In this document: positions 4,776 to 35,785 of the stretch, piece after piece
How the letters are laid out: every line of letters begins with the position of its first letter
How positions within the stretch are numbered: the stretch's first letter is position 1
Notes under the pieces: generated by a model
What the model was told of the DNA's origin: nothing
The model's input: only the letters and a program-made list of their open reading frames with translations
The model's database searches: none
Assembly (NCBI RefSeq): GCF_028198165.1
Contig: NZ_CP116339.1
Location: 1,743,001-1,807,000, forward strand
Reading direction: 5' to 3'
DNA length: 64,000 nt
Source of the DNA: Pseudoxanthomonas sp. JBR18
GTDB lineage: Bacteria; Pseudomonadota; Gammaproteobacteria; Xanthomonadales; Xanthomonadaceae
Program-made: the position numbers and the translations under genes

Positions 4776-5108
4776 CTACTTGGTCTCCACGCGCCGGTAC
4801 TGGTCGCTGCCGGTATTGAGCTGGCCGTTGGCCTCGTCGATGGCGAAGGTCACCGTCTCGCCGTCGTTGTTCACCTGTAGCGCGCCGTCCTTGTAGATGG
4901 CCGGGTAGCTGTCGGTCTTGGGCTTGCGGCTGAAGAACTTCGGCGTGGTGCTGCGGACCATGAAGGCCTCGCCGCTGCGCTCGATGTCCATCGTCTCGTC
5001 CTGCGTCTGCACGTTGACCCAGTGGCCCACGAACTTCTCGCCTTCCACCTTGGCGCAGCCGGACACCAGCAACGCCGTGGCCAGTGCGGCCCCCATCCAC
5101 TTCATCAT
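4776..5108 (-). CDS. Small lipoprotein, copy 1 of a duplicated gene
   Basis: A 110-residue lipoprotein. A short basic N-terminus and hydrophobic core end in the lipobox LVSGC (Cys 18), so it should be lipidated and exported. The mature part (EGEKFVGHWVN... and a C-terminal DQYRR segment) is a small beta-rich-looking domain of unknown function. A second gene at 10033-10365 encodes a protein differing at only three residues (positions 5, 11 and 110), and the DNA is also nearly identical. A start one codon later (MKW) is equally possible. The function is unknown. Confidence 0.85.
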   Translation of the reverse strand: MMKWMGAALATALLVSGCAKVEGEKFVGHWVNVQTQDETMDIERSGEAFMVRSTTPKFFSRKPKTDSYPAIYKDGALQVNNDGETVTFAIDEANGQLNTGSDQYRRVETK

Positions 5109-5230
5109 CGTATGTACTCCGTCAGTTGTGCTGGCGGCGAGGATGCGCGGCGGGGGATGTAGGGAAGGTCAAGGTGTGGCGTGGGTCAGGCGCGCCTTGC
5201 AAAGGAGCTGCACTCTGAGCGTTGTCCCCG
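4783..5230. repeat. Direct repeat copy A (lipoprotein gene plus upstream DNA)
   Basis: This stretch, covering the lipoprotein gene and about 120 bases upstream, recurs at about 10040-10495 in the same orientation. The coding part is almost identical. The upstream part (from GTCAGTTG through GGCGGCGAGGATGCGCG to the CTGCACTCTG motif) is similar but more diverged. Confidence 0.85.
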
Positions 5231-8487: not shown

Positions 8488-9411
8488 TTACCGAGCGAGC
8501 GCGCCGTGTTGGGGCTGCTCCATCGAGCGCGAGGTCTCCTGGGTGGGCGCCTGCACGGCTTGCTGGTTGGCGATCTCAAGCCTGTGCAGATTGTCGGCCA
8601 GGGGCTGCTTGATCGCATCGCCCTTGTCGACGTGGACGCGCATGACGTCCTGACCATTCCCCGGATTCTTCCAGACCGCAAACAGGTTGCCATTGGCCGG
8701 ATTGGCGACCACGTCCTGGATCCCCGGCAGACGGCCCTGTTTGGCTTCTACCGCAAGCGCACCCGCCATCCGTTCCTTGTCCTGCTGGTTCGTGTAGACG
8801 CCTGCTTCGGGGCCAAGCCTGTCCAGTCCTGCCAGGGCCTGCCTGAAATACGGGTCGTTGCGCTGCTGGGCCTCGCGCTCGGCATCCTGGGCGGGGCGCC
8901 CTGCGCTGGAGACGCGGCCAGAATTGCTGAGTCCAGGCAAGACCGGTCTGATCGACTCATCCAGCTGCCGACCCGATGCGGGCGCCCAATGACCAGTGAA
9001 TCCATCCTGCCTGGGCTCCGGAAGCTTTGCGTCCCGCAGCACGCTGTCTGCCAGCGTGTTGGAGTTCTGCTCCAGGGGGTCGTAAGGGTATCTGTCGTCC
9101 TTGCTCCTGGCGTTGGCGATCATCTGCTGCCAGGTCTTGGACAAGTCCGGACCATGCGCGATGCCTTCCCGATATTGCTTCTGGCCCACCGCGTTGGGAT
9201 TGGCGGGATGGTCGGGATTTGTCCTGTCGTAAGGAAGGTTGGTTTCGACGTGCATCCTTCCATAGGGCAGGCCGGGCTGAGGATCCCCTGTCCATCCGCT
9301 AATGGTGTGCTGGTGACCCTGCTTATCCGTATAGAGCAGGAACTTATGGTGATAGTCCTTGCCCAGCTGTGACCCGATATTGCGGTACCCAACCTCGATC
9401 TTCTCTTCCAT
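8488..9411 (-). CDS. Candidate Xanthomonas-type T4SS toxic effector (X-Tfe) with XVIPCD-like C-terminus
   Basis: A 307-residue protein. The last 120 or so residues follow the pattern of the XVIPCD secretion domain of Xanthomonas T4SS effectors: a YFRQALAGLDRLG lead, then ERMAGALAVEAKQGRLPGIQ, a VV...GNLFAVW segment, a HVDKGDAIKQPL stretch and a Gln-rich tail. The N-terminal toxin domain (HHKFLLYTDKQG, HTISGWTG, QNSNTLADSVL) recalls domains in polymorphic toxins but I cannot name its activity. It lies 17 bases downstream of a lipoprotein gene in the same orientation, the standard immunity-effector order. It should be injected into rival bacteria by a VirD4-dependent T4SS encoded elsewhere. Family assignment is from motif pattern only. 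Confidence 0.8.
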   Translation of the reverse strand: MEEKIEVGYRNIGSQLGKDYHHKFLLYTDKQGHQHTISGWTGDPQPGLPYGRMHVETNLPYDRTNPDHPANPNAVGQKQYREGIAHGPDLSKTWQQMIANARSKDDRYPYDPLEQNSNTLADSVLRDAKLPEPRQDGFTGHWAPASGRQLDESIRPVLPGLSNSGRVSSAGRPAQDAEREAQQRNDPYFRQALAGLDRLGPEAGVYTNQQDKERMAGALAVEAKQGRLPGIQDVVANPANGNLFAVWKNPGNGQDVMRVHVDKGDAIKQPLADNLHRLEIANQQAVQAPTQETSRSMEQPQHGALAR

Positions 9412-9428
9412 GAGGCGCTCCGTGATCC

Positions 9429-9866
9429 CTACTGGTTTTTGAGGTGCAGTGCTTCGATTCCGGACACCTTGCCGTTCGTATCCAGATTGAAGGTGATCAC
9501 GACAGATCGCGCATCCGGGTCCAGCATGGCCTGACCATGGTTGTCGCGTACCACCAGCTTGTCCGCCGTGTCCTCGACCACCTTTGAGGTGGAGGATTTT
9601 GCGAACGCATCAATGACGGCGGCCTTGTCGGTGCCGACGGGAAAGTGCCTGCGCACGATGTCGCTGACATCCAGCTGCTCGAACCGGACAGGCTTCTGGG
9701 ACGCGTAAATCTCTTCCAGCATGGGACCAACTCCTGATTTCATGGATGCTTCCTGTGTCGGCGCGCGACGCGCCGTGCCCGCATTGGTGCAGGATGCAAG
9801 CGGCAGTGTGGCGATGGCGATCAAAGCGATCGATGCAGTCCAGCCGCAAGGCGTGAAGCGTGGCAT
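9429..9866 (-). CDS. Lipoprotein, probable cognate immunity protein (X-Tfi)
   Basis: A 145-residue lipoprotein with a signal sequence ending in lipobox LASC (about residue 27). The mature part ends in a beta-rich segment (VVITFNLDTNGKVSGIEAL) like small periplasmic domains. It directly precedes the candidate effector at 8488-9411 with a 17-base gap. In the known Xanthomonas and Stenotrophomonas systems, effectors are paired with an upstream periplasmic lipoprotein that neutralises toxin reaching the periplasm. The immunity role is inferred from this layout. The lipoprotein nature is read from the sequence. Confidence 0.75.
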   Translation of the reverse strand: MPRFTPCGWTASIALIAIATLPLASCTNAGTARRAPTQEASMKSGVGPMLEEIYASQKPVRFEQLDVSDIVRRHFPVGTDKAAVIDAFAKSSTSKVVEDTADKLVVRDNHGQAMLDPDARSVVITFNLDTNGKVSGIEALHLKNQ

Positions 9867-10000
9867 GGCGATCTTCCTTCTCCTTAAGGTCTACGGCATG
9901 GCGCGTACGCCATGGCGTCTGACGGTCCCTGACCGCGCCGGCGGAGCACGTCCGCATTCCAGGCGAGGGCCATAGCGTACCCCTTATCCGGTCGGCCGGC

Positions 10001-10022
10001 TGCGCCCGCCTTTGTGGGCGCA
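10001..10022 (-). terminator. Hairpin downstream of lipoprotein copy 2
   Basis: A 7-bp inverted repeat TGCGCCC/GGGCGCA lies 10 bases beyond the lipoprotein stop on the minus strand. There is no T tract, so termination is uncertain. Confidence 0.4.
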
Positions 10023-10032
10023 GCTTGGCACG

Positions 10033-10365
10033 TCACCTGGTCTCGACGCGCCGGTACTGGTCGCTGCCGGTATTGAGCTGGCCGTTGGCCTCGTCGATGG
10101 CGAAGGTCACCGTCTCGCCGTCGTTGTTCACCTGCAGCGCGCCGTCCTTGTAGATGGCCGGGTAGCTGTCGGTCTTGGGCTTGCGGCTGAAGAACTTCGG
10201 CGTGGTGCTGCGGACCATGAAGGCCTCGCCGCTGCGCTCGATGTCCATCGTCTCGTCCTGCGTCTGCACGTTGACCCAGTGGCCCACGAACTTCTCGCCT
10301 TCCACCTTGGCGCAGCCGGACACCAGCAACGCCGCGGCCAGTGCGGCCCCCCTCCACTTCATCAT
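10033..10365 (-). CDS. Small lipoprotein, copy 2 of a duplicated gene
   Basis: A 110-residue lipoprotein with lipobox LVSGC, differing from the product of 4776-5108 at only three positions. The DNA is nearly identical through the gene, so the duplication is recent or maintained by gene conversion. It lies upstream of, and in the same direction as, the immunity/effector pair at 9866-8488, with about 165 bases and a hairpin between. On its other side it abuts the end of the integron cassette array. The function is unknown. Confidence 0.85.
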   Translation of the reverse strand: MMKWRGAALAAALLVSGCAKVEGEKFVGHWVNVQTQDETMDIERSGEAFMVRSTTPKFFSRKPKTDSYPAIYKDGALQVNNDGETVTFAIDEANGQLNTGSDQYRRVETR

Positions 10366-10495
10366 CGTGTGGTCTCGGTCAGTTGAGCTGGCGGCGAGGA
10401 TGCGCGCGGGGGGGCGTAATGGAGATCAAGGATGTAGATCTAGATTGTGGCAGGGGCCAGTGTGCCTTGCGAAGAAACTGCACTCTGGCCCTTGT
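10040..10495. repeat. Direct repeat copy B (lipoprotein gene plus upstream DNA)
   Basis: Second copy of the stretch at 4783-5230, same orientation, about 5.25 kb apart. Similarity runs through the gene and into the upstream palindrome at 10454-10491, then stops near the last cassette gene. Confidence 0.85.
10454..10491. repeat. REP-like palindrome
   Basis: Inverted repeat GGGCCAGTGTGC / GCACTCTGGCCC with one mismatch and a 14-base loop. The same GGYCAGAGYGC-type arm recurs near 5200, 37298-37340 and 37519, suggesting a dispersed extragenic palindrome family. Confidence 0.6.
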
Positions 10496-10510
10496 TCTTG
10501 TCTGTTTTCG

Positions 10511-11137
10511 TTAGACCTTAACCGGCTGGGCCACGGCCTCTTTCTTTGCAGCGCGATCATTCTTGCGCTTCTGGAACTGTTCGAACTTCTGCGCGAGCAG
10601 GAAGACATAGTCAATGATGGCATACGTGAACGTCATGACGTCGTTGGCATCTTGGGCACTGATTTCTGTGTCTGTTGCGTGCGCAGCATTGTTGCGTTGA
10701 TCTCTAAGTTCCTCGCTCCATTGATACAGTCGTGAGTCAATGACTCCGCTGTCACGAAGCTCCTTGAGCCCACCCCCCAGGTAATTGTCTTTCGTGTTGT
10801 AGTAACGACATATGGCTTCAAGAGATCGGCCACACATAGCAGTCGCGGCGAGATACGCACCAGACTGCATGCATTTCTCGGCTTCGTCGATTGAGTTGCG
10901 CACGATGGGTGGAATGTCTGAACCCAAGGCGCGCTTGGGGCGCGGGTAAACTCTGATTGGGCGAGACCAAACAGTTTTGCTGTCTACAAAATCCTCCTGA
11001 GACTCAGCAACGATGGCCGAGTCGCAGGATGGGCACTTAAGGAAGAAAGTCTTTGTCGCAAGGAACTCAAGGTCGCTGTGCTCACACAGCAACTCAGCGT
11101 CAACTCTTGCTGCGCAGACATGGCAATCAATCAGCAC
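10511..11137 (-). CDS. DUF4145-type protein with zinc ribbon (integron cassette gene)
   Basis: A 208-residue protein. Its N-terminus has two Cys pairs (CHVC near residue 5 and CPSC about 30 residues on), consistent with a zinc ribbon. The rest (SIDEAEKCMQSGAYLAATAMCGRSLEAI, then the LRDQRNNAAHATD segment) matches the helical DUF4145 domain, which is also found in restriction-type proteins. I set the start at GTG 11137 because a perfect AGGAGG lies 6 bases upstream, directly after the attC site. The longer frame would translate through the attC. Last cassette of the array. The function is unknown, with a nucleic-acid or defence role possible. Confidence 0.75.
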   Translation of the reverse strand: MLIDCHVCAARVDAELLCEHSDLEFLATKTFFLKCPSCDSAIVAESQEDFVDSKTVWSRPIRVYPRPKRALGSDIPPIVRNSIDEAEKCMQSGAYLAATAMCGRSLEAICRYYNTKDNYLGGGLKELRDSGVIDSRLYQWSEELRDQRNNAAHATDTEISAQDANDVMTFTYAIIDYVFLLAQKFEQFQKRKNDRAAKKEAVAQPVKV

Positions 11138-11146
11138 CCGTGGCCT

Positions 11147-11205
11147 CCTAACGCCTGATTTAAGTCGAACCACGAAGCGGCTTCGGCTTGCATGAATTGT
11201 TAGAT
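11147..11205 (-). repeat. attC recombination site (between cassettes 3 and 4)
   Basis: About 59 bases bounded by CCTAAC (11147-11152) and GTTAGA (11199-11204). The inner arms are TTAAGTCG and CGGCTTGCA, and the hairpin tip is CCACGAAGCGG. It closely resembles the two other sites in the array. Confidence 0.88.
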
Positions 11206-11867
11206 TATTCGTCAGAGTCACCGCGAACGTTCAGCTTGCCAGCCGCTTGCTGCTCTGCCAGCGGCTCAACGCGCCGATACACTGAGAGCAAAATCTTGAG
11301 TTTCATCACGGGGTGGCCTTGAGTGCGCTGATCTAACAGCGCTACTTCCCGCTCGGACAAACCCAGCAAATTTTCCAGCTGCTTTGCGGAGGACTCGCAA
11401 AATTCGATCTGCTTTTTTCGCAGGTCGAGCTCTTGGCTCTTCAAGTTTATCTTTGAAAGTTTATGTTCCACGGAACCCTTTTGGATGTTCCGGTATGTAT
11501 CGTGCGCGGCATTAATCGAGGAGCAAACAGACTTAACTATGTGGGCTACCGTTGCTGCAGCAGCCAACAGCAATGTTAGCTCGATGAAACCCGGTGAAGC
11601 GTACTGAATGCTTTTCACCTGTGGACGAAGCCGCGGAGGGATCTTGTGGAAAAGCTGATTGAAAAAATTGACGGTGCTGTAGCCGCCCTGCCAAGGGAAC
11701 TTCCCGTAGATGTATTCAATCTCTTCCCGGCGGGCTAACGGTAGATCAGTCATGAGCGAGTAGGCGAAGCCGTAAAGCTGAACGTACTCGCGGGTCGCCT
11801 CGGAAAGATCCTCCAAATTCCAGCGGCCATCCAGCTCAAGCTTCACGTCTTCTGCAGTCAGTGCCAT
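11205..11867 (-). CDS. Hypothetical membrane/coiled-coil protein (integron cassette gene)
   Basis: A 220-residue protein of unknown function. One hydrophobic segment (FIELTLLLAAAATVAHIV, about residues 93-110) could span the membrane. It is followed by a charged helical region rich in Lys, Glu and Leu (about 130-170) that looks like a coiled coil. The ATG at 11867 follows a GGGGGAG ribosome binding site. The gene lies between attC2 and attC3, and its TAA stop touches attC3, as expected for a cassette. No enzymatic motif is visible. Confidence 0.72.
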   Translation of the reverse strand: MALTAEDVKLELDGRWNLEDLSEATREYVQLYGFAYSLMTDLPLARREEIEYIYGKFPWQGGYSTVNFFNQLFHKIPPRLRPQVKSIQYASPGFIELTLLLAAAATVAHIVKSVCSSINAAHDTYRNIQKGSVEHKLSKINLKSQELDLRKKQIEFCESSAKQLENLLGLSEREVALLDQRTQGHPVMKLKILLSVYRRVEPLAEQQAAGKLNVRGDSDE

Positions 11868-11885
11868 GAACTCCCCCCTACGAGA

Positions 11886-11945
11886 ATCTAACGCTGGATT
11901 TAAGTCGCGCCGCGAAGCGGCGTCGGCTTGGACGAGTTGTTAGGC
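11886..11945 (-). repeat. attC recombination site (between cassettes 2 and 3)
   Basis: About 60 bases bounded by TCTAAC (11887-11892) and GTTAGG (11939-11944), with TTAAGTCG and CGGCTTGGA arms and a GCCGCGAAGCGGC tip. Confidence 0.88.
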
Positions 11946-11950
11946 GGCGC

Positions 11951-12316
11951 TCAGGTGGCGAGTGCGACGACCAGGGCGAAGACCGCCAGGACTGAAGATC
12001 CCACCGCGAGCTTGAGAGTCACAGCTTGCTGCGCAGCAGTCTCCTTTAACCCCAAAGCAATTCCCTCAAGTTGCTCAGCAATGCGGACCACCACTTCCGA
12101 TTCATTCTCTTGGTGGGTTTCTAATGCTTGAATGCGCTCAGCAATGGACTTTATCTGGGCTGAAGCAGATGCATGCGGATCAATAGGGGCGGGCTTCGGC
12201 TTCGAATCGAAAGTTTTCCAAATGCCTTTGGCTGCTTTAGCCACATCCGGCAGATAGACAAGAATTTGCCTCCACGGAATCTTCGTCGCGGCAGTGACGG
12301 CTACTGATGCAGGCAT
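11951..12316 (-). CDS. Hypothetical tail-anchored membrane protein (integron cassette gene)
   Basis: A 121-residue protein with a predicted helical middle (SAQIKSIAERIQALETHQEN, about residues 52-71) and a C-terminal hydrophobic segment (about residues 101-120, LKLAVGSSVLAVFALVVALA) that would anchor it in the membrane with the N-terminus inside. The ATG at 12316 has a GGGGGG stretch upstream as a possible ribosome binding site. It lies between attC1 and attC2. Both this protein and its neighbour at 11205 combine a membrane segment with a helical coil, but nothing shows they interact. Confidence 0.7.
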   Translation of the reverse strand: MPASVAVTAATKIPWRQILVYLPDVAKAAKGIWKTFDSKPKPAPIDPHASASAQIKSIAERIQALETHQENESEVVVRIAEQLEGIALGLKETAAQQAVTLKLAVGSSVLAVFALVVALAT

Positions 12317-12360
12317 GTGCCCCCCTTCGGGCGTTGAAATAGCAATGATTCTGGTGTGCG

Positions 12361-12420
12361 GCCTAACGCCTAAATCAAGTCGGCCCGCGAGGCCGGTTTG
12401 GCCTGAATAATTTGTTAGAG
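12361..12420 (-). repeat. attC recombination site (between cassettes 1 and 2)
   Basis: About 60 bases bounded by CCTAAC (12362-12367) and GTTAGAG (12414-12420), with TCAAGTCGG and TTTGGCCTGA arms and a GGCCCGCGAGGCC tip. Confidence 0.88.
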
Positions 12421-12421
12421 C

Positions 12422-12631
12422 CTACCTTTGCTTGAGAATGTTCTCGAGCGAGTTGCTGCGACCTGCCAATGCACACTGATGAAAGAGGGTTAGCCAGTAC
12501 TCCCTTGTCCTCTTCTTGCTCTCTTCAGCATTTTCCCAATTGGAAATCTGAATCATCAGATCGTATGCGACTCGAGCGGCTGAGTCGGGTTGTACCGTGA
12601 TTGGGCCACTGACCGAAATTTGATCCGCCAT
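12422..12631 (-). CDS. Hypothetical small protein (integron cassette gene)
   Basis: A 69-residue protein with no recognisable domain. It has a polar N-terminus (MADQISVSGPITV) and a helical, charged remainder. The start at ATG 12631 is supported by AGGAGA five bases upstream. A longer frame from 12670 would run into the integration core at 12658-12664. First visible cassette of the array in the direction of transcription. The function is unknown. Confidence 0.65.
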   Translation of the reverse strand: MADQISVSGPITVQPDSAARVAYDLMIQISNWENAEESKKRTREYWLTLFHQCALAGRSNSLENILKQR

Positions 12632-12654
12632 AACTATCTCCTGATGTTGGGTGT

Positions 12655-12713
12655 GAGCTCTAACGCTCATTGGACCCCGGGTCCGGGGTGCTGCTCGAAC
12701 TGTTCATGTGTGA
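12655..12713 (-). repeat. Possible degenerate attC or array boundary
   Basis: A CTCTAAC core (12658-12664) lies upstream of the first cassette, followed by an ACCCCGG/CCGGGGT hairpin. The opposite core is not clear (GTTCATG at best), so this is either a decayed attC or the junction where the array was cut off from its integrase end. Confidence 0.4.
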
Positions 12714-12836
12714 AGTGTTTGACGTCAAGGAATTTTCTAAATAAAAGCCGGGAGCTACATGATCGTGGGCGGTGTCGAAACCAGTCCAGACTAGCGTGGA
12801 ATCCGACAGAAGCATGGGGTGTAACAGACGGAAATC

Positions 12837-12992
12837 TCACTGGGCGTCTGTCGCACTGACGCGCGAGCACGTCAACGGCTTCCATTGCTTGCACTGCACC
12901 AGGGGGCGGCATCCTTGGTCTGCGGTGATACCCATCGGCCACGGCAAGGCGGCGATTACTTCGATTCCGTTCTGCTTGCGCCTGCGTCCCAT
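12837..12992 (-). pseudogene. Internally deleted remnant of the Mrr-like nuclease gene
   Basis: A 51-codon frame starts MGRRRKQNGIEVIAALPWP and then jumps to LVQCKQWK before ending. Both parts match the intact gene at 40962-41819: its residues 1-19 (MGRRRKQHGIEVVSALPWP) and its catalytic-region TLVQCKQWK. The two pieces are fused in frame after loss of most of the membrane and nuclease regions, so only the QxK strand is left. The upstream DNA (CATGCAAGAA...CCATAG) is also similar. It is very unlikely to be functional. Confidence 0.75.
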
Positions 12993-13158
12993 GCAAGAAC
13001 TCCCCAGTCCCTGCGCGAACCATAGACCTCGGCCGGTCTCCTGTCAGCGGTGAGCGAAATTGTCCCGGTGAGTAAAGGGAGCGGCTAGACGTCGTGGCTA
13101 CGCAGATGTTGCCGTGAGCGATCAATTGAGGCGCCGCGCCAACAGACGCCACCCGTGA

Positions 13159-13407
13159 TCAGCTGGCCAAAGCCCGCTCGAACTTTGAAACAAACACTTT
13201 GAGAGAGCTTCCACAAGCGGCGCAAAAATCACGCAGTTGCAGCAAATCCATCCGCCGCCCGCCGCGTTCAACATCGCTGACGTAGGACTGGGGACGGCCC
13301 AGCGCAGCGCTCAGGCCCGCCTGCGTCAGCCCTGCAGCCAATCGGAGATCGCGCAGCTGCTGCAGCAGGATTGCGTACTCCGCTTTATGGATCGACTTGG
13401 TGGACAT
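13159..13407 (-). CDS. XRE-family HTH transcriptional regulator
   Basis: An 82-residue single-domain Cro/CI-type regulator. The helix-turn-helix runs from LRDLRLAAGLTQAGLSAALGRPQSYVSDVERGGRRMD (residues about 18-54), with the typical Gln and Ser-Tyr recognition positions. The C-terminal CAACGSSLKVFVSKFE resembles HipB/antitoxin-like regulators. No toxin gene adjoins it on the same strand. The ATG is followed by in-frame coding without interruption. It may regulate the divergent small gene at 13501. Confidence 0.85.
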   Translation of the reverse strand: MSTKSIHKAEYAILLQQLRDLRLAAGLTQAGLSAALGRPQSYVSDVERGGRRMDLLQLRDFCAACGSSLKVFVSKFERALAS

Positions 13408-13500
13408 GGGGGGGAACGTCGCGCGGGAGCAACGACGCTATATCCCCTTTTCAAATATCCGAAAAACAGATAAATTCGAACTGCGGGCACCCCGTCCGCC

Positions 13501-35659: not shown

Positions 35660-35710
35660 GCTTGCCTCCTCGTTCCATGAAGTACCCGCACGCCGGGATG
35701 GCGACGGGAA

Positions 35711-35785
35711 GTCGGGAGGTTCGAAACCGCTAAGAGCCGGCGGGCGTATTCCCCCGAAGGGTGTTGTATTAGCCGCCCTCCCGAC
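35711..35785 (-). promoter_or_regulatory. Structured mRNA leader with antisense-target sequence
   Basis: GTCGGGAGG and CCTCCCGAC arms (35777-35785 and 35711-35719) enclose a CCC-TTCG-GGG hairpin. They also enclose the segment at about 35719-35740 (GGCTCTTAGCGGTTTCGAAC on the minus strand), which is nearly complementary to the small RNA at 35856-35877. It lies about 60 bases before the AGGAGG and ATG of the XAC0095-like gene. Confidence 0.6.

Follow-up and report, generated by a model that had tools for sequence, protein, structure and literature searches.

An integron cassette array without an integrase in Pseudoxanthomonas sp. JBR18 with candidate phage-defence cargo

The window, i.e. the stretch of 64,000 nucleotides from the chromosome of Pseudoxanthomonas sp. 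JBR18 analysed here, contains a compact cluster of four co-oriented genes and three attC sites, which all lie on the minus strand (10510..12664, the cassettes following one another as c4-c3-c2-c1 in reading order). c4 (12422..12631) codes for a protein of 69 aa, and its cassette starts with a GTTAGAG half-site (12658..12664; 7.3 bits, E 0.31 with the filters off). attC3 (12359..12420) separates c4 from c3 (11951..12316), the product of which has 121 aa and a C-terminal hydrophobic helix, attC2 (11884..11945) is located between c3 and c2 (11205..11867), which encodes a 220-aa relative of the toxin PD-T4-10B, and attC1 (11144..11205) lies between c2 and c1 (10511..11137), the gene for a 208-aa protein with a zinc ribbon and a HEPN (DUF4145) domain. 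The cassettes are arranged head to tail with an attC after each gene save c1. No attC of its own was found for c1 with the full covariance model in 10000-11130, and all that is left of it is an R'' box, GTCTAAC (10510..10516, minus strand), which contains the c1 stop codon and abuts the left flank. c2, c3, and c4 are intact frames, and for c1 and c4 a start downstream of that of the longest open frame is most likely, i.e. GTG at 11137 and ATG at 12631, respectively, because the longer frames traverse an attC or the flank. On the left the array is bordered by a putative lipoprotein gene (10033..10365, minus strand), which is conserved in relatives, and on the right by two short remnants (12879..12992, minus strand, detected by tblastn) of the gene for an Mrr-like nuclease, which adjoins the locus on this side in relatives. 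The initial annotation had described the four genes as AT-richer and as having no known function or only a DUF. The first part holds, as their GC content is 50-54% vs 66.5% for the window, with the array ranking 37th lowest in GC among 1237 sliding windows of 2150 bases, i.e. there are places that are still richer in AT; the second part has to be amended for c1 and c2, as discussed below.

In attC sites complementary R'' and R' boxes (CTAAC/GTTAG) enclose a folded core. The three sites of the array are apparent as 56-base direct repeats at 11148, 11888, and 12363, the second and third sharing 84% and 75% identity with the first, and each extends over about 60 bases with CTAAC/GTTAG outer arms and a GC-rich core, i.e. 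the uniform architecture that had been noted initially. The stop codons of the genes fall in or beside the R'' box. When each site is folded alone with DNA parameters, attC1 and attC2 adopt an arm-plus-hairpin structure, whereas the best fold of attC3, the weakest of the three, leaves the outer arms unpaired. A covariance-model search, which had been proposed as a check, recognises all three: our model R1, trained on 24 of the 27 attC sites of the array located 51-60 kb to the left and with the window sites excluded from training, scores attC2, attC1, and attC3 with 67.8, 65.9, and 40.3 bits (E 1.2e-15, 4.1e-15, and 5.6e-8; 13 sources, 208 kb), in each case best on the minus strand, i.e. the strand of the four genes. 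Beyond attC sites and their reverse strands nothing better than E 0.18 was found in these 208 kb, three weaker sites of a related genome (G034, see below) being counted as attC. Imperfect palindromes with GC-rich hairpins are common and attC3 also appears in a terminator-like scan, which might suggest that the sites are chance palindromes, terminators, or ordinary intergenic repeats. Yet the E-values, the strand preference, the position of the stop codons, the confinement of such sites to arrays in this genome, the similarity of attC2 to a known cassette, and the fact that relatives of c1, c2, c3, and c4 are all found beside attC sites in other genera leave this explanation with a negligible probability, and we regard a non-attC nature of the three sites as refuted in practice.

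The known cassette is aadB. A stretch of 63 bases over attC2 is 88.9% identical to the plasmid-borne aadB cassette (407 records matched, and the 20 matches listed are all aadB), and we read this stretch as the probable aadB attC. PMC8352920 counts aadB among the cassettes with an attC of the Xanthomonadales type. In PMC11089894 the attC sites of Pseudoxanthomonas are placed in a marine clade, which fits the Xanthomonadales label of the sites only awkwardly.

The genome has a size of 4.6 Mb and contains nine matches to the integrase family, none of which lies in the window (0/9), just as the initial annotation had stated. Elsewhere in the genome, where it had suggested to look for an intI gene, there is a single TIGR02249 match above the cut-off (484 bits, cut-off 265; G000:C1:1692089-1693030), an open frame of 336 aa starting from ATG, which is located about 61 kb from the array, there being no integron integrase within 60 kb. 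Genome-wide R1 yields 97 matches at E <= 0.001, 18 of which are reverse-strand doubles, resulting in at least 79 attC sites, a lower bound as 150 of 4261 candidates were scored. All of them are concentrated in five array regions, so that the repeats do not occur as spacers in unrelated loci, the finding that would have spoken against attC sites according to the initial annotation. One array of 27 sites lies beside intI (1.693-1.703 Mb), and further arrays comprise 27 (1.312-1.323 Mb), 12 (1.878-1.885 Mb), and 10 sites (4.180-4.186 Mb), all on the plus strand. The array of the window, with three sites, is the smallest of the four integrase-less arrays and the sole one on the minus strand.

A complete integron has intI and attI adjoining the array, and the window lacks an integrase. 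A CALIN, i.e. a cassette array without an integrase, is in turn characterised by at least two attC sites close together according to PMC12444791, and here three sites are found within 1.3 kb. Because the three attC sites are recognised by an independently trained model, the genes are co-oriented, and no integrase is present within 60 kb, we assign the array to the CALINs, in agreement with the initial annotation. Since the sites are of the same type as those of the other arrays of the genome (48 resident sites were compared, the nearest of which are identical to the window sites at 53, 53, and 49 positions out of 60), the IntI encoded at a distance of about 61 kb can most likely use them as substrates in trans. 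With a recognisable attC on either side, c2 and c3 should then remain excisable by IntI in trans, whereas c1, having lost its own attC, would be anchored. In summary, we consider the array a CALIN that forms a small satellite of the integron resident in this genome and that carries most likely defensive cargo, a reading to which we assign a probability of about 70%.

The surroundings of the array were compared with those in relatives using a 4.1-kb query against 38 genomes of the genus (own genome included), and the corresponding stretches of eight other genomes were inspected. 36 of the 38 genomes give some match, some of them dozens, and many among the matches listed are only attC-sized; large or scattered cassette arrays thus seem to be usual in the genus. 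Two genomes, G034 and G035, have a left flank that is 90-92% identical to that of the window. In G034 the locus contains the c1 gene with its upstream attC and two more weak attC sites, which enclose two genes. Additionally, it codes for an Mrr-like nuclease and for a 751-aa ATPase with a match (857 bits) to PDC-S46, a candidate defence family. In G035 two genes and an Mrr-like nuclease, but no recognisable attC, are found, and in a third genome, G031, the lipoprotein gene and the Mrr-like gene are about 2.4 kb apart with other genes between them and neither an attC nor the flank motif. The interval between the lipoprotein gene and the Mrr-like gene is hence variable in the four genomes, with attC sites in two of them. 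The initial annotation had proposed that the array was cut off at 10510 by a duplicated lipoprotein segment. The duplication is real, as 4778-5225 and 10035-10495 of the window are 90% identical, but the lipoprotein gene neighbours the same locus in G034, G035, and G031 and is therefore an old flank rather than the element that truncated the array.

The window, G034, and G035 have a flank in common that ends, as judged by eye, at TTCG in all three, and the R'' box of the lost attC of c1 adjoins it in the window. The resulting junction, TTTTCG/TTAGAC, is what may be expected if the resident IntI had recently inserted cassettes de novo at an attG-like chromosomal site, for which G/WT at the border between chromosome and cassette together with an empty site is characteristic. 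We found no empty site among the relatives' loci compared, however, and G031 does not contain the flank motif. Moreover, c1 and its upstream attC are present at the same locus in G034, and c1 differs between window and G034 to a similar extent as the flank, so that at least the c1 cassette predates the split of the two genomes. A recent insertion is thus an improbable origin of the array.

A further alternative is that the array is a dead fossil, i.e. an old cluster, the sites of which no longer recombine and which is kept for a useful c1 gene, with the other genes drifting or silent. The R1 scores of the window sites are below those of most resident sites, the three attC sites at the G034 locus have decayed to 30-36 bits, c1 has lost its attC, and a promoter scan of 10000-13500 yields one promoter-like match, which is within chance. 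On the other hand, attC1 and attC2 possess full arms and hairpins, the frames of c2, c3, and c4 are intact, and the genome has an open IntI frame, all of which speaks against a fossil. We therefore regard the fossil as rather unlikely and favour the reading of the array as a satellite of the resident integron.

The cargo is what distinguishes the array. The c1 protein matches PF13643 (DUF4145) and has an N-terminal zinc ribbon. Its RNxxxH motif, which corresponds to the Rx4-6H pattern of HEPN domains, is conserved without exception in the 30 sequences aligned (c1 and 29 of its 74 homologues), and the predicted structure shows the HEPN fold, with Foldseek matches no better than E 4.8e-3. The closest named relative is annotated as Pseudoxanthomonas winnipegensis (P0122), and relatives of c1 adjoin attC sites in other genera. 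c1 is under purifying selection, with a dN/dS of 0.117 relative to the G034 copy at 90.8% nucleotide identity over 207 codons. The match to PF13643, the RNxxxH motif, the HEPN fold, and the zinc ribbon are features that c1 has in common with the HEPN/DUF4145 proteins described in PMC3710099, a study in which HEPN proteins of integron cassettes have been proposed to be dormancy RNases. These integron HEPN proteins constitute, however, a separate family in the table of that study (PDB 3jrt), whereas c1 is DUF4145-like with an N-terminal zinc ribbon. c1 is hereby linked to the HEPN RNases, and it is probably an RNase of this kind that halts the cell.

c2 matches three PADLOC models of PD-T4-10_B, the best one with E 1.4e-39 over model positions 138-346 of 353, i.e. 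without the first 137 positions. In the PD-T4-10 system, as reported in PMC9519451, B is toxic, A neutralises B, and B is needed for the protection from T4. c2 shares the match to the B toxin with this system, but differs from it as A overlaps B there, whereas c2 has no recognised A partner, lacks the N-terminal part of the model, and is a gene cassette. None of the four window proteins matches PD-T4-10A, and the A model (PDLC04023) found nothing in the own genome or in ten genomes and records, no control genome being matched either. A single hydrophobic stretch is present in the protein (mean hydropathy 1.89 over 19 residues), and its fold model is weak (pLDDT 72.7), with no convincing structural match. 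c2 is probably a single-gene effector of the PD-T4-10B kind, possibly membrane-associated, which would be toxic and act by abortive infection.

At E <= 0.001 c2 has 303 homologues, and the 120 of them that are listed have 218-246 aa; c2 is thus a conserved cassette gene linked to a toxin for which protection of E. coli against T-even phages has been reported. Eight named relatives with 64-71% identity come from Marinobacter, Halomonas, Burkholderiales (four), Nitrospira, and Nitrosospira. Together with the own locus, a Vibrio record, a Salmonella record, and two further genomes they make up 13 c2-type loci. In eight of these an attC-like site begins at the stop codon, vs 868/12685 for random positions and 19/193 for the ends of other frames (binomial 4.5e-7 and 7.2e-6, respectively; 7/12 with the own locus left out, 4.1e-6 and 4.5e-5), a result that is supportive rather than a clean trial, as the rule for such sites was revised after a first version had given 3/13. 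Among the five loci lacking the site (L049, L054, L058, L061, and L062), L049 and L061 look cassette-like by eye, and R1 applied to eight c2-type loci finds matches at E <= 0.01 in five places in four loci. The Vibrio relative (38% identity) is flanked by long direct repeats. In the Salmonella record a 42% relative is located alone between ogrK and fieF, adjoining P2-like phage tail genes, and its gene is present in 159 of 5426 E. coli genomes; in three E. coli loci that we opened, ogrK lies upstream in two and an IS66 element in the third, and no neighbour is annotated as antitoxin. Judged from these sequences, c2 belongs to a widespread cassette family with a distant relative at the edges of P2-like prophages.

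For c3 at least eight homologues are known, including proteins from Xanthomonas sacchari and X. arboricola, and in 297 genomes of the family two matches were found besides the own one (84% and 26%), both between attC sites. In the same 297 genomes c4 has three matches besides the own one, two of which have an attC beside them, one after and one before the gene. The third (G877, another genus; L073 7717-8333) follows immediately on an Mrr-like gene that is shortened, just as c4 does in the window, with the remaining neighbours differing from those of the window.

CALINs are common and the element alone is ordinary, so that the importance of the array lies in its cargo; what is new here is the reading of this cargo, the CALIN kind itself being well known. 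According to PMC12444791, about half of the Xanthomonas genomes have CALINs, which are found at conserved loci. The present array belongs to another genus of the family, its position, with a lipoprotein gene on one side and the remnant of an Mrr-like gene on the other, differs from the loci named in that study, and it reads opposite to the other four arrays of its genome. For single integron cassettes a defence against phages has been proposed or demonstrated (Darracq 2025, Kieffer 2025, Getz 2025, as cited in PMC12444791), and the likeness to the present array consists in the single cassettes. c1 and c2 might be toxic effectors that are triggered by infection, and phage defence, which the initial annotation had brought up as an idea, is better supported than before as a candidate function.

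We tentatively extend this idea to the possibility that c2 represents the prototype of a PD-T4-10B cassette that consists of a single gene and has no antitoxin, and that it forms, together with c1, a cassette-built defence island stocking an ordinary hotspot. This reading covers c2 cassettes in Xanthomonadaceae, Halomonas, Marinobacter, Burkholderiales, Nitrospira, and Vibrio, with the distant relative being carried at P2-like prophage edges, and as part of it the locus, which is filled by non-cassette genes in relatives, would be a defence hotspot stocked by cassette trade. Its odds are slightly lowered because G031 has the same interval without attC. In the literature searched, we found no report of a cassette-borne PD-T4-10B, and the 2025 work on integron phage defence may bear on this point. 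If c2 protects alone, this would demonstrate that an abortive-infection toxin spreads without its antitoxin and that cassettes feed an ordinary chromosomal accessory locus.

Some further observations concern the surroundings of the array and the other arrays of the genome. Rfam detects sRNA-Xcc1 (RF02221) in the window at 35703-35785 on the minus strand with 73.8 bits. This RNA was first described as integron-borne, and R1 recognises no attC near its position. A cassette-sized unit of 235 bases is present in nine copies in the resident array (L016, G000:C1:1683001-1703000) and in three copies in a second array (L045, G000:C1:1308001-1327000). The copies are 87-92% identical (the query copy itself 100%) and have no Rfam match, and the unit is perhaps a proliferating, non-coding cassette. 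Finally, two genes near the CALIN (8488-9866 of the window) code for an X-Tfes XVIPCD domain and for DUF6393, respectively, and frames beside intI (L009 1-1300) resemble them by eye, pointing to a possible neighbourhood common to CALIN and intI.
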